Of a DNA stretch of 64,000 nt, positions 37,911 to 41,168 are shown piece by piece. Numbering within the stretch: position 1 is the first letter of the stretch; every line of letters starts with the position of its first letter. The position numbers were made by a program, and so were the translations under genes. Source of the stretch: Algisphaera agarilytica (GTDB taxonomy: Bacteria > Planctomycetota > Phycisphaerae > Phycisphaerales > Phycisphaeraceae); contig NZ_JACHGY010000001.1 in assembly GCF_014207595.1 (NCBI RefSeq), positions 2,114,836 to 2,178,835 on the forward strand. Direction: 5' to 3'. The notes under the pieces were generated by a model. That model ran no database searches, was not told the origin of the DNA, and saw only the letters and a list, made by a program, of their open reading frames with translations.

Positions 37911-39080
37911 GTGCCCGCCAAGCGGACCCCCACCACCGCCAAGAAGAACAAAGCCCGCCGCCGCACCTGCCGTGTGCTGCTGGTCGAGGCCAGCCCCGAA
38001 CGCCGCAAGGCCCTCGAAGCCTGCGGCACGGCCCACCGTCCGATGAGCGTGGTGCACGCCCCGACGCTGACCCAAGCCCGCAAGTACCTCGCCGACCATT
38101 CCGTCGACCTGGCCGTGATCGCCCCCCAACTCCCCGACGGTTCGGGCTTCGACCTGACCGCCGAGCTCACCCGGATGAGCCACACCACCGCCAAGATCGT
38201 GATCGGCGTCACCGAAGACTTCAGCAAAGCCCAGCAGGCCCTGCGTGCCGGTGCGGACGACTACATCGTCGACGGCCTCGAGTTCGAAGAGCTCTCGACC
38301 CGTGTCGCCGAGGCGCTCGACCGCAAGACCCGCGACAAGGCCCACGTCCAGCGCGTCGAACGCCTGCGTCGCCTGTGCAAGAAACTCAACGCCGCCCGCG
38401 AAGAAGTGTCGAAGCAGGTGGATATCCTCTGCAACGACCTGGTTACCGCGTATCAGGAACTCGCCTGCCAGATGCAGAATGTGGTGCAGACCTCCGAGTT
38501 CGACAGCGTTGTTCAGGACGAGCTCGACCTCGAAGCGCTGCTCCGTAAAACCCTCGAACACCTGATGGCCAAGCTCGGCCCCGCCAACGCGGCCATCTTC
38601 CTGCCCGCGACCATGGACGAATATTCGCTGGGCGGTTACGTGAACTACGACTGCACCAAAGAGTCGGCCGACATGCTGCTCCAGCAGCTCGCCGACAGCC
38701 TGGCCCCGCGCGTCGCCGCCCACCAGGACATGATCCACCTCACCGAACGTGAGGCGATCGAACGCTGGATCGGCCAGGACGCCGGGATGCTCGGCGATTC
38801 GGAACTACTCGCCGTGCCCTGCATGCACGACGACGAATGCCTGGCCGTGCTGGTGCTCTTCCGCGATGTGGATCAGCCGTTTGTTGAAGAACACCTGGAC
38901 CGTGTCTCGGCCCTGGGCCCGCTGATGGGCGAGTCGCTGGAGCGGATCATCCGCGTCCACCACCGCTCGCTCTTCGACCCCGAAGACGCCGAGAGCTACG
39001 GCGAGTCCTACAGCGACGACGCCGACAACCCCTTCGGCGTCGACATGGACGACGACTACGACGACGAACTGCCGTTCTGA
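37911..39080 (+). CDS. Degenerate receiver-GAF protein
   Basis: This 389-residue protein has a receiver-like domain (30-145) that has lost the phosphorylation residues: the acidic pair is replaced (LLVEASPERRKAL), the phospho-Asp strand reads LAVIAPQLPDGSG, and the final lysine position reads ADDYIVDG. A helical linker (VEQ-like RLRRLCKKLNAAREEVSKQV) leads to a GAF-like domain (AAIFLPATMDEYSLGGYVNY to LLAVPCMHDDECLAVLVLFR). The C-terminus is acidic (DMDDDYDDELPF). GTG start with upstream GGAG. Probably a phosphorylation-independent adapter in the module. Confidence 0.8.
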   Translation: MPAKRTPTTAKKNKARRRTCRVLLVEASPERRKALEACGTAHRPMSVVHAPTLTQARKYLADHSVDLAVIAPQLPDGSGFDLTAELTRMSHTTAKIVIGVTEDFSKAQQALRAGADDYIVDGLEFEELSTRVAEALDRKTRDKAHVQRVERLRRLCKKLNAAREEVSKQVDILCNDLVTAYQELACQMQNVVQTSEFDSVVQDELDLEALLRKTLEHLMAKLGPANAAIFLPATMDEYSLGGYVNYDCTKESADMLLQQLADSLAPRVAAHQDMIHLTEREAIERWIGQDAGMLGDSELLAVPCMHDDECLAVLVLFRDVDQPFVEEHLDRVSALGPLMGESLERIIRVHHRSLFDPEDAESYGESYSDDADNPFGVDMDDDYDDELPF

Positions 39081-39103: not shown

Positions 39104-39162
39104 ATAGCTGCGACGCCACGCGTCGCAGCCCCCCCTTCAGCGACGCGTGGCGTCGCAGCTAT
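39104..39162. repeat. Family B palindrome, copy at 3' side of the RAYT gene
   Basis: Arms at 39104-39126 (ATAGCTGCGACGCCACGCGT plus CGC) and 39140-39162 are perfectly complementary over 23 bases around a 13-base loop. Confidence 0.9.
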
Positions 39163-39641
39163 AACTTATCGTCCCCCTCTTTCCAGAATAGCGCGTGGTG
39201 TCCAGGCAGATACCCTGCGACTAATCGCTCGAAATGCGCTTGATCCTTCACTCGTTTCCCGCTTCCACCCCGCGACATCCAATCACGCTTCCCGAATGTC
39301 GAGTTGAGTTTGCGCGTCATGGAATGCCGGGCCGAGGATCGCAGCCCCTTCCAATCTCGATCATCGTTCCAGCTGAGCAAGGCGTGGACGTGGGTCGGAT
39401 CCACCGCAACCGCATGCAACCGATACGCCAACGGCTCCGTAGCGTTTCGGAGTGTTTCGAGGATCAAAGCCTGTTGCTCTGGGCTCCAAATCACCGCGGC
39501 CCCGCTCATTCGCTCCCGGTATGCGGCCGCCGCTGTTTCGTCCGTAGGCATTACCCCGTCGTGATCCCGCCGGACATAGCCCCGCGGTCGGTCGGGCATC
39601 CACGACCCGTAGGTGTGCCAAGTGAAGAGGTAGCAAGGCAT
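39159..39641 (-). CDS. REP-associated tyrosine transposase (RAYT)
   Basis: This 160-residue Y1 (HUH) transposase begins MPCYLFTWHTYGSWMPDRP, the start of the RAYT group. It has the HUH motif in DPTHVHALLSW and a C-terminal AGYLPGHHALFW with the likely catalytic Tyr, preceded by the basic segment SMTRKLNSTFGKRDW. It is expected to nick and move or copy the flanking REP-like palindromes. The ATG at 39641 follows GGGGAG; the frame stays open upstream through the repeat, but that part has no ribosome site and is encoded by the palindrome. No IS200-type partner tnpB is present. Confidence 0.85.
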   Translation of the reverse strand: MPCYLFTWHTYGSWMPDRPRGYVRRDHDGVMPTDETAAAAYRERMSGAAVIWSPEQQALILETLRNATEPLAYRLHAVAVDPTHVHALLSWNDDRDWKGLRSSARHSMTRKLNSTFGKRDWMSRGGSGKRVKDQAHFERLVAGYLPGHHALFWKEGDDKL

Positions 39642-39670
39642 CGATACTCCCCGATAAGCAGAAAGCCGCA

Positions 39671-39728
39671 ATAGCTGCGACGCCACGCGTCGTGGCACAT
39701 CCACAGCGACGCGTGGCGTCGCAGCTAT
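39671..39728. repeat. Family B palindrome, copy at 5' side of the RAYT gene
   Basis: Arms 39671-39693 and 39706-39728 are complementary except for one base, and are almost identical to the arms of the other copy; the loops differ. It lies just upstream of argH. Confidence 0.9.
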
Positions 39729-39746: not shown

Positions 39747-41168
39747 ATGAGTCAAAAACCCTGGGAACACGCTAAATCATCGGGCAGCGAGGGCGATCCG
39801 CTCGCGGCGCGGTTTGTCTCGTCGCTGGACTACGACAAACGCCTCTACAAACACGACATCGCCGGATCCATCGCCCACGCGCGGATGCTGCTGAAGGTCG
39901 GCCTGATCACCGACGGCGACCTTGCCGAGATCGAGCGCGGCCTGAGCGAGATCGAATCCGAGATCGACGAGCAGGGCGACGCCTGGCCCGGCTGGAAGGT
40001 CGAGCTCGAAGACGTGCACATGTGCGTCGAAGCCGCGCTGATCGAGAAGACCGGTGACGCGGGGCGGAAGCTGCACACTGGACGTAGTCGGAACGATCAG
40101 GTTGCAACTGATTTGATGTTGTGGCTTGAATACGATGGTTATGTTGGGATTCAATCGCGGTGGGAGCCGATTATGTCGGCTTTTGTCGACTTGGCTGACA
40201 AATACGGCCACATCGTAATGCCTTCTTACACACACCTTCAGCGTGCGCAACCTATCGTTGTCGGTGGTGAATTGATGGCGTGGGCATTGATGCTGCAACG
40301 TGCATTTAATCGTATTAGTTCCCCTTACCAGCTTCGTGATTTCTTTCCACTTGGAAGCGGTGCTATTGCAGGTTCTTCACTGCCACTCGATCGTCGCCAT
40401 TCGAGTCAGGAATTGGGTAGTCCTTACTGGGATCAATTAACTTTAAACTCAGAATCGAGTATCGAAGGGACAGCCAATCGCGATATGGCGTTGGACTTTG
40501 TCTGGGGATTATCGATGATCTCAACAGCGCTCTCCCGCTGGGCGGAGCAGTGGATCATCTACGCCACGACGGAGTTCGGTTTCATCACGCTCGACAACCT
40601 GTACACCACCGGGTCGTCGATGATGCCGCAGAAGCAGAACCCGGACATGCTCGAGCTGATCCGCGGGAAGACCGGGCAGGTGTACGGCTCGCTCATGGCG
40701 CTCTTGACCATGTGCAAGGGCATCACCATCGGCTACAACCGCGACCTGCAGGAAGACAAGCGCCACGTCTTCGCCGCCTACGACGCGGTGTGCGACTGCC
40801 TGGATATGGCCGCGGCGATCGTGCGGACGACCACGTTCAACGAAGAGCGGATCAAGGCCGGCCTGAACCGCGGCTACCTCGACGCGACGAGTTTGGCGGA
40901 GTACCTCGTGACCAAGGGCGTGCCCTTCCGCACCAGCCACCAGCACGTTGGGGCGCTGGTCCGCCTAGCGGGTGAACTCGATAGGCACGAACTCAAGAAG
41001 CTCACCCTCGACGAGATGAAAGGCGTCTGCGACGCAATCGAAGAAGACGTCTACGACTGGCTCGGCCCGGAGAACGTGGTCAAACGCTACCAGTCGGCCG
41101 GTAACGCGGGGGTAAGCGGCTTCGAGGCGCAGCTCGCGTCATGGAAAGAGCGGTTAGGGAATAGCTAA
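39747..41168 (+). CDS. argH: Argininosuccinate lyase
   Basis: This 473-residue enzyme of the fumarase superfamily splits argininosuccinate into arginine and fumarate. It has the substrate-binding HTGRSRNDQVATDL region, SYTHLQRAQPI, and the flexible signature loop GSSMMPQKQNPD, with Gln in place of the more common Lys-Lys spacing. The C-terminal domain is normal (RTSHQHVGALVRLAGE). The stretch 40076-40525, coding for the central helical core, is visibly AT-rich (45% GC in one hand-counted 60-base line against 65% just downstream), though the protein stays conserved there. The ATG lies 19 bases from the palindrome. Confidence 0.95.
   Translation: MSQKPWEHAKSSGSEGDPLAARFVSSLDYDKRLYKHDIAGSIAHARMLLKVGLITDGDLAEIERGLSEIESEIDEQGDAWPGWKVELEDVHMCVEAALIEKTGDAGRKLHTGRSRNDQVATDLMLWLEYDGYVGIQSRWEPIMSAFVDLADKYGHIVMPSYTHLQRAQPIVVGGELMAWALMLQRAFNRISSPYQLRDFFPLGSGAIAGSSLPLDRRHSSQELGSPYWDQLTLNSESSIEGTANRDMALDFVWGLSMISTALSRWAEQWIIYATTEFGFITLDNLYTTGSSMMPQKQNPDMLELIRGKTGQVYGSLMALLTMCKGITIGYNRDLQEDKRHVFAAYDAVCDCLDMAAAIVRTTTFNEERIKAGLNRGYLDATSLAEYLVTKGVPFRTSHQHVGALVRLAGELDRHELKKLTLDEMKGVCDAIEEDVYDWLGPENVVKRYQSAGNAGVSGFEAQLASWKERLGNS

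Follow-up and report, generated by a model that had tools for sequence, protein, structure and literature searches.

A RAYT transposase between head-to-head REP pairs upstream of argH in Algisphaera agarilytica

Organization of the locus

The window analysed here (the whole stretch of 64,000 nucleotides) contains a gene for a RAYT / TnpA_REP-type transposase, recognized from its motifs and predicted fold (39159..39641, minus strand; 160 aa and a TAG stop). It lies antisense to both of its neighbours, the host genes that flank the insertion: a gene for a response regulator + GAF protein on the left (37911..39080, plus strand) and argH, encoding argininosuccinate lyase, on the right (39747..41168, plus strand). 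The initial annotation placed a 160-residue HUH/Y1 RAYT gene between two palindromes of about 58 bases, one perfect over 23-base arms, the other with one mismatch, with different loops. The sequence bears this out, at lengths of 59 and 58 bases. The left palindrome (39104-39162) has perfect 23-base arms around a spacer of 13 bases; the right one (39671-39728) is part of a longer inverted repeat of 26 bases, 96% complementary with one mismatch, and its spacer is unlike that of the left. The transposase frame runs from 39641 to 39162 and its TAG stop (39161-39159) falls within the left palindrome, as had also been noted. The argH start was said to lie 19 bases from the repeat: the palindrome ends at 39728 and the ATG is at 39747, with 18 bases between them.

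The palindromes are thus real, but they are not the basic repeat for which they had been taken. Each 23-base arm is a hairpin of its own, with a 7-bp stem and a 3-base loop (two arms were folded), of the form GCGACGC-CAC-GCGTCGC with a 5' TAG tag. Each palindrome hence consists of two REPs placed head to head, and the repeat itself measures 24 rather than 58 bases, made of TAGCT, the 7-bp stem with its CAC loop, and CTG. In the left pair, the outer unit (unit 1, 39105..39128, plus strand) has CAG instead of CTG as its 3' foot, and the inner unit (unit 2, 39138..39161, minus strand) is identical to the genome consensus and provides, with its TAG tag, the stop codon of the transposase. In the right pair, the inner unit (unit 3, 39672..39695, plus strand), upstream of the transposase, has one stem mismatch, and the outer unit (unit 4, 39704..39727, minus strand), which adjoins argH, is again identical to the consensus.

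The transposase

The protein has the HUH motif THVH (H84, H86), W91, a single tyrosine that is catalytic by alignment (Y144), and H148 four residues after it, on a predicted Y1 fold. H84, H86, W91, Y144 and H148 are invariant in all 33 proteins of our alignment, i.e., the window protein and 32 Planctomycetota relatives from the 35 loci found (L119, L123 and L128 were left out). We take the genera of these relatives to belong to the Planctomycetota, and checked the placement of Adhaeretor; the restriction to this phylum is partly built in, because the 35 loci were found with one peptide pattern of the protein's own group. Among more distant relatives inspected by eye, we observed Y---H in L022, L023, L046, L049 and L051, Y----Q in L047, L052 and L053, and Y---Q in L024.

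Taken alone, the window protein matches curated models poorly (Pfam Y1_Tnp, E 0.28; NCBIfam RAYT, 17.4 bits for a cut-off of 80), and it is not one of the 16 (of 20) proteins of a first alignment whose Pfam Y1_Tnp matches have E<=0.1, the best of these being 2e-8. A profile comparison with the E. coli RAYT aligned 52 columns around the HUH motif with a probability of 0.9%, and a profile search against the sequences of solved structures gave nothing at E<=1. The AlphaFold2 model has a pLDDT of 94.9. Compared with it, Foldseek ranks the REP-bound E. coli RAYT first (4er8_A; E 4e-6, TM 0.51/0.49, rmsd 7.5) and IS200-type transposases after it. The VIA-align matches include Thg1 and parvovirus nickase folds, which we take as sharing the predicted fold only.

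We also considered whether the element is simply an IS200/IS605 insertion sequence whose ends form hairpins. The HUH/Y1 fold is common to both kinds of enzyme, nine of the 20 proteins of the first alignment match the NCBIfam IS200 model at E<=0.01, and VIA-align scores IS200-type enzymes (Z 12.4-14.1, over ~100 residues) above 4er8 (Z 11.4, with 120 residues between 1 and 159 aligned at rmsd 2.8). Yet 4er8, the top Foldseek match, aligns over 1-159, whereas most IS200 matches end near 136, and one at 148. No tnpB adjoins the gene, whose neighbours are the response regulator and argH, and the hairpins carry TAG tags and come in inverted pairs. Moreover, the genome has one full match of the gene, plus three distant ones at 29-37% identity, for 16 REP units elsewhere: the RAYT gene has not multiplied like an insertion sequence. 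On copy number, tagged paired hairpins, lack of tnpB and the 4er8 match, we rejected an IS200 identity, which we consider very improbable. The locus is instead very probably a REPtron, i.e., one full copy of a RAYT (an HUH/Y1 single-strand DNA transposase) flanked by head-to-head REP pairs.

REP copies in the genome

A search with the 19-base core of the repeat at <=3 mismatches gave five matches in the window for 0.15 expected, one of them a self-overlap on the other strand. At <=2 mismatches there were 20 matches in the genome (4.17 Mb), four of them in the window, against none forward and one reverse for the reversed pattern used as control. These counts are far above expectation and control, so the repeats are not due to chance, and the genome has about 20 copies rather than two, mostly intergenic and some paired. 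The 20 aligned units share TAGCTGCGACGCCACGCGTCGCTG, with sharp edges and little conservation outside. Stems are perfect in 15 of them and have one mismatch in five. TAG is present in 15 of the 20; where a REPtron is expected to have GTAG/GTGG at its hairpin foot, eight units have ATAG and two GTAG. CT is found 5' of the stem in 17 and 3' of it in 14.

The 20 units occupy 14 places, 16 units being away from the transposase gene. Judged by nearby coding-like frames, 13 of these places are intergenic and one is inside a gene (at L014, L018 and L020, a frame overlapping a better one on the opposite strand was set aside by eye). Eight of the units are single, and the others form five head-to-head pairs, of which the window has two, besides a tail-to-tail pair at 373835. 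Since REPs usually exceed 100 copies per genome, as stated in PMC2817692, 20 copies are few for a REP family.

A covariance model built from the 20 units had 23 matches in the genome itself, none in one same-genus genome (G001) and one in the other (G002, E 0.054). As 150 candidates were scored per genome, high counts are lower bounds: at least 52 matches in G015, at least 66 in G043 and at least 44 in G032, besides four in G038 and one in G020 (E 0.078). A paired change of the stem (GCGACAC/GTGTCGC) was found in 12 of 13 matches in G032, three of three in G041 and one of two in G047, by a plain mismatch search that imposed no pairing rule. The REP family as a whole is older than the inserts, or has moved between lineages, since the same core is present in G015 and a near-identical one in G043. 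G015, from another genus, has 41 matches of the core, many without mismatch, and none of its own RAYTs exceeds 46% identity with that of the window; the match between RAYT and REP is therefore not exclusive. The genome G043, of the same family as A. agarilytica and rated 100% complete, is not one of those in which a RAYT was matched at E<=0.001, so REPs may exist without the enzyme; its repeats are perhaps an orphan REP family.

The REPtron may now be inactive or domesticated, its copies having spread earlier, perhaps via another RAYT, and the gene being kept for a host role or drifting. The stem mismatch in five of the 20 REPs, the off-consensus 3' foot in two of the four window units, and the abundance of REPs in G043, which is outside the 55 of 151 genomes that have a RAYT match, would fit this view. 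The frame is nevertheless open, all invariant residues are intact, and units 2 and 4 are identical to the consensus. We regard an inactive element as possible, though doubtful; it would be compatible with a REPtron in everything except present activity.

Insertions in the lineage

Relatives of the RAYT were found at E<=0.001 in 55 of 151 genomes, including that of A. agarilytica. At this threshold neither same-genus genome has a match; they are 78% (G001) and 91% (G002) complete, so some of these absences may be gaps. Among the 30 argH loci compared, including our own, the response regulator was matched upstream of argH in 14 of the 29 relatives. A RAYT was matched in none of the 29. In G001, the regulator and argH are adjacent without insert: the distance from the regulator stop to the conserved argH start motif, measured by script, is 77 bases, for 681 in A. 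agarilytica. It ranges from 77 to 287 in 11 relatives including G001, and is 655 and 761 in two others (one of the 14, L066, was not located). At L078, about 600 bases of other sequence lie in this gap.

The locus thus differs among relatives: neither same-genus genome has a RAYT match, and in one of them the flanking genes are adjacent. The initial annotation had named two outcomes that would argue against an active REP system, namely only two copies in the genome or the same locus in all relatives, and we found neither. Its REPtron reading holds, with some 20 REP copies and an insert-free locus in relatives.

Tagged hairpins of other sequence are present in the regulator-argH gap of relatives without a RAYT there, as pairs in L076 and L080 and as one hairpin in L091; L093 has one tagged hairpin upstream of argH. 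REPs have therefore landed in this gap more than once, and it is a recurrent landing site. The REPtron splits the regulator-argH neighbourhood and places two strong hairpins before argH (-34 and -33.5 kcal/mol, folded as DNA); it may affect argH expression, as the initial annotation suggested. The strong folding and the hairpins of the relatives could speak for palindromes that are kept, whatever their origin, because they act in transcription or mRNA stability of argH and its neighbour. Against such a role, neither palindrome is followed by a T run on the strand of argH, the same units lie beside many unrelated genes, with one pair inside a gene, and the gap has no tagged hairpin in the 10 other relatives measured. 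Between 39000 and 39800 we found no sigma-70-type promoter match, and one terminator-like match for a shuffled mean of 0.4, in a scan that takes loops of 3-8 only and so passes over long palindromes. We consider retention for argH highly unlikely, and mobility of a REPtron the better account.

Two other sites allow the same comparison. A REP pair inside a GTPase gene lengthens the frame by about 25 residues without shifting it. None of the 15 relatives in the alignment of this gene, G001 among them, has the insertion (20 loci were fetched and 17 aligned, our own included; the alignment of L132 was unusable). A REP pair can thus enter a coding frame without breaking it. The gene encodes an MMR_HSR1-type, 50S-binding-type GTPase domain above the Pfam cut-off, with a marginal FeoB_N match; an mnmE-like identity was dropped, because Pfam gives only these two. 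At 1510090, the two genes that flank a REP pair are also neighbours in G001 and G002, with no REP between them. At two further sites, the gene neighbouring the REP at 1899638 had no match in five genomes, and the neighbours of the 373835 site were not found together in relatives. Inserts at the compared sites are thus particular to the lineage, as of a REPtron that has moved, and gain in the lineage of A. agarilytica is the simplest account for the three sites (argH, GTPase gene and 1510090).

Hairpins and stop codons around related RAYTs

We searched 33 RAYT loci for hairpins under a strict rule (RTAG, 0-2 bases, a perfect stem >=6 and a loop of 2-6), counting as near those within 350 bases of the RAYT. 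There were 48 matches near RAYTs (~23 kb), against three in the 133.5 kb further out. By locus, 19 of the 33 have a 5' REP and 14 a 3' REP, 12 having both and 12 none. Because this rule demands RTAG, we repeated the search without the tag. Perfect hairpins with stems >=7 numbered 89 near the 33 RAYTs in ~23 kb, 43 of them with RTAG (ATAG/GTAG) on one strand, and 68 far from RAYTs in ~133.5 kb, with RTAG in three. Such a tagged hairpin is near the RAYT in 19 of the 33 loci, and stems vary between genomes.

The arrangement of the window, where the RAYT stop codon falls in a REP tag, recurs by strict count in five of the 33 loci (the window, L099, L117, L124 and L126, the last two being close relatives). 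By eye, we also saw it with imperfect hairpins at L101 and L113, and as a TAA variant at L094. It is not confined to transposases: the REP at 311842 (C1, L002) touches the end of a TsaE gene and its tag is the stop codon. A neutral account, by which an open frame simply ends at the first stop it meets in a REP that extends into it, may be enough. Given this account, and the report of GTAG REPs that give TAG stops to flanking ORFs (PMC3733652), we do not claim the arrangement as new. The same study (Di Nocera 2013), from which the terms HH and TT come, describes GTAG REPs in the PVC group, and Nunvar 2010 (PMC2817692) describes REPs near or directly after rayt stop codons. At L119 (3001-4785, the same region as L040), no stop separates the RAYT frame from that of a class-III aminotransferase, and the joint frame of 595 aa is either a fusion or merely the result of a missing stop.

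Class placement of the enzyme

According to Quentin 2018 (PMC6006769), the third metal ligand is the residue about four positions after the tyrosine; IS608 has Gln and the E. coli RAYT has Asn there. The study distinguishes three TnpA_Y1 classes, Y---Q, Y---NP and Y----Q. With His at Tyr+4 in all 33 aligned proteins, the window enzyme has neither the Gln of class 1 nor the Asn-Pro (Tyr+4/+5) of class 2; at Tyr+5, where class 3 has Gln, it has H149, and its REPs have a TAG instead of a CnGA foot. It thus fits none of the three published classes.

Comparison with known systems shows where it departs from them. Class 3, described in Planctomycetes, Acidobacteria and Proteobacteria (PMC6006769), has in common with our system the phylum and REP-like repeats beside the gene, but combines NHVH, Y----Q and a CnGA foot where ours has THVH, Y---H and a TAG foot. 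The E. coli RAYT (TnpA_REP, subclass 2.2, 4er8) has the same fold as predicted here, the HUH motif, a putative ligand at Tyr+4 and inverted REPs. It differs in its HMH at 59-61 and Y115/N119, for Y144/H148 in ours, and in REPs with a bulge (PMC8266576), unlike those of A. agarilytica. The REPtron Sm of S. maltophilia (group 3 RAYT; subclass 2.5) is like ours in its short REP, 5' tag and CT: its REP has 23 nt, a perfect 8-bp palindrome, a 3-nt loop, a 5' GTAG tag and CT cleavage (PMC8266576). In ours, the TAG of 15 of the 20 units follows A in eight and G in two, and the enzyme has THVH and Y---H, for DH[LF]H and Y---NP in S. maltophilia (Quentin 2018, PMC6006769).

The REPtron is therefore ordinary in kind, and its enzyme belongs to a group that is not covered by the published class table. 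The odds seem about even that this group is a separate class of Planctomycetota TnpA_Y1, to judge from sequences, with a putative three-His metal site (HUH and Tyr+4), ATAG/GTAG REPs of many stems, and a REP tag that repeatedly serves as transposase stop, possibly tying translation to the hairpin. In the open-access literature searched, no paper named REPs together with Phycisphaerae.

Possible mechanism of REP mobility

Biochemical data on three RAYTs are given in PMC8266576. Single-stranded REP is bound by the E. coli RAYT, which requires the GTAG tag and cleaves at CT; in S. maltophilia, binding tolerates changes of the tag and cutting suffers from them; and the Marinomonas RAYT cuts at CT and CA. 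By analogy, the window RAYT would bind the REP as a single-stranded hairpin, the 5' TAG tag would guide it, and its tyrosine would cut at a nearby CT. The freed strand could then be joined elsewhere, bringing REP pairs to mostly intergenic sites. The CT beside most REP stems matches the CT cleavage reported for the E. coli and S. maltophilia RAYTs (PMC8266576). Binding, CT cleavage and strand transfer are thus what we would expect of the enzyme from its studied homologues. Its sequence, and the presence or absence of inserts in relatives, suggest that it can mobilise its repeat, and we infer that this RAYT, rather than another or a lost one, moved the REP copies.

The loci gathered here, with a changed metal ligand, many REP stems and two like REPtrons in one genome, form a comparative set for the matching of RAYTs to REPs. 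They also bear on whether the residue at Tyr+4 sets the chemistry of cleavage.

A second REPtron in the same genome

The other REPtron is at C1:846304-847055 (L022, L181, L182), where a RAYT only distantly related to that of the window (35% identical over 5-95, and scoring 25.3 bits with Pfam Y1_Tnp for a cut-off of 23) lies between units of another REP, TTAGCCCCGGGCTCTGCCCGGG. This repeat has 44 matches at <=3 mismatches and none in controls, with a paired stem change in many copies, and the stop codon of the second RAYT is likewise within a REP tag. A small gene without a RAYT match, at C1:805993-806616 (L179), likewise lies between two pairs of the second REP. This arrangement, which may be due to chance, resembles a REPtron that carries other cargo.
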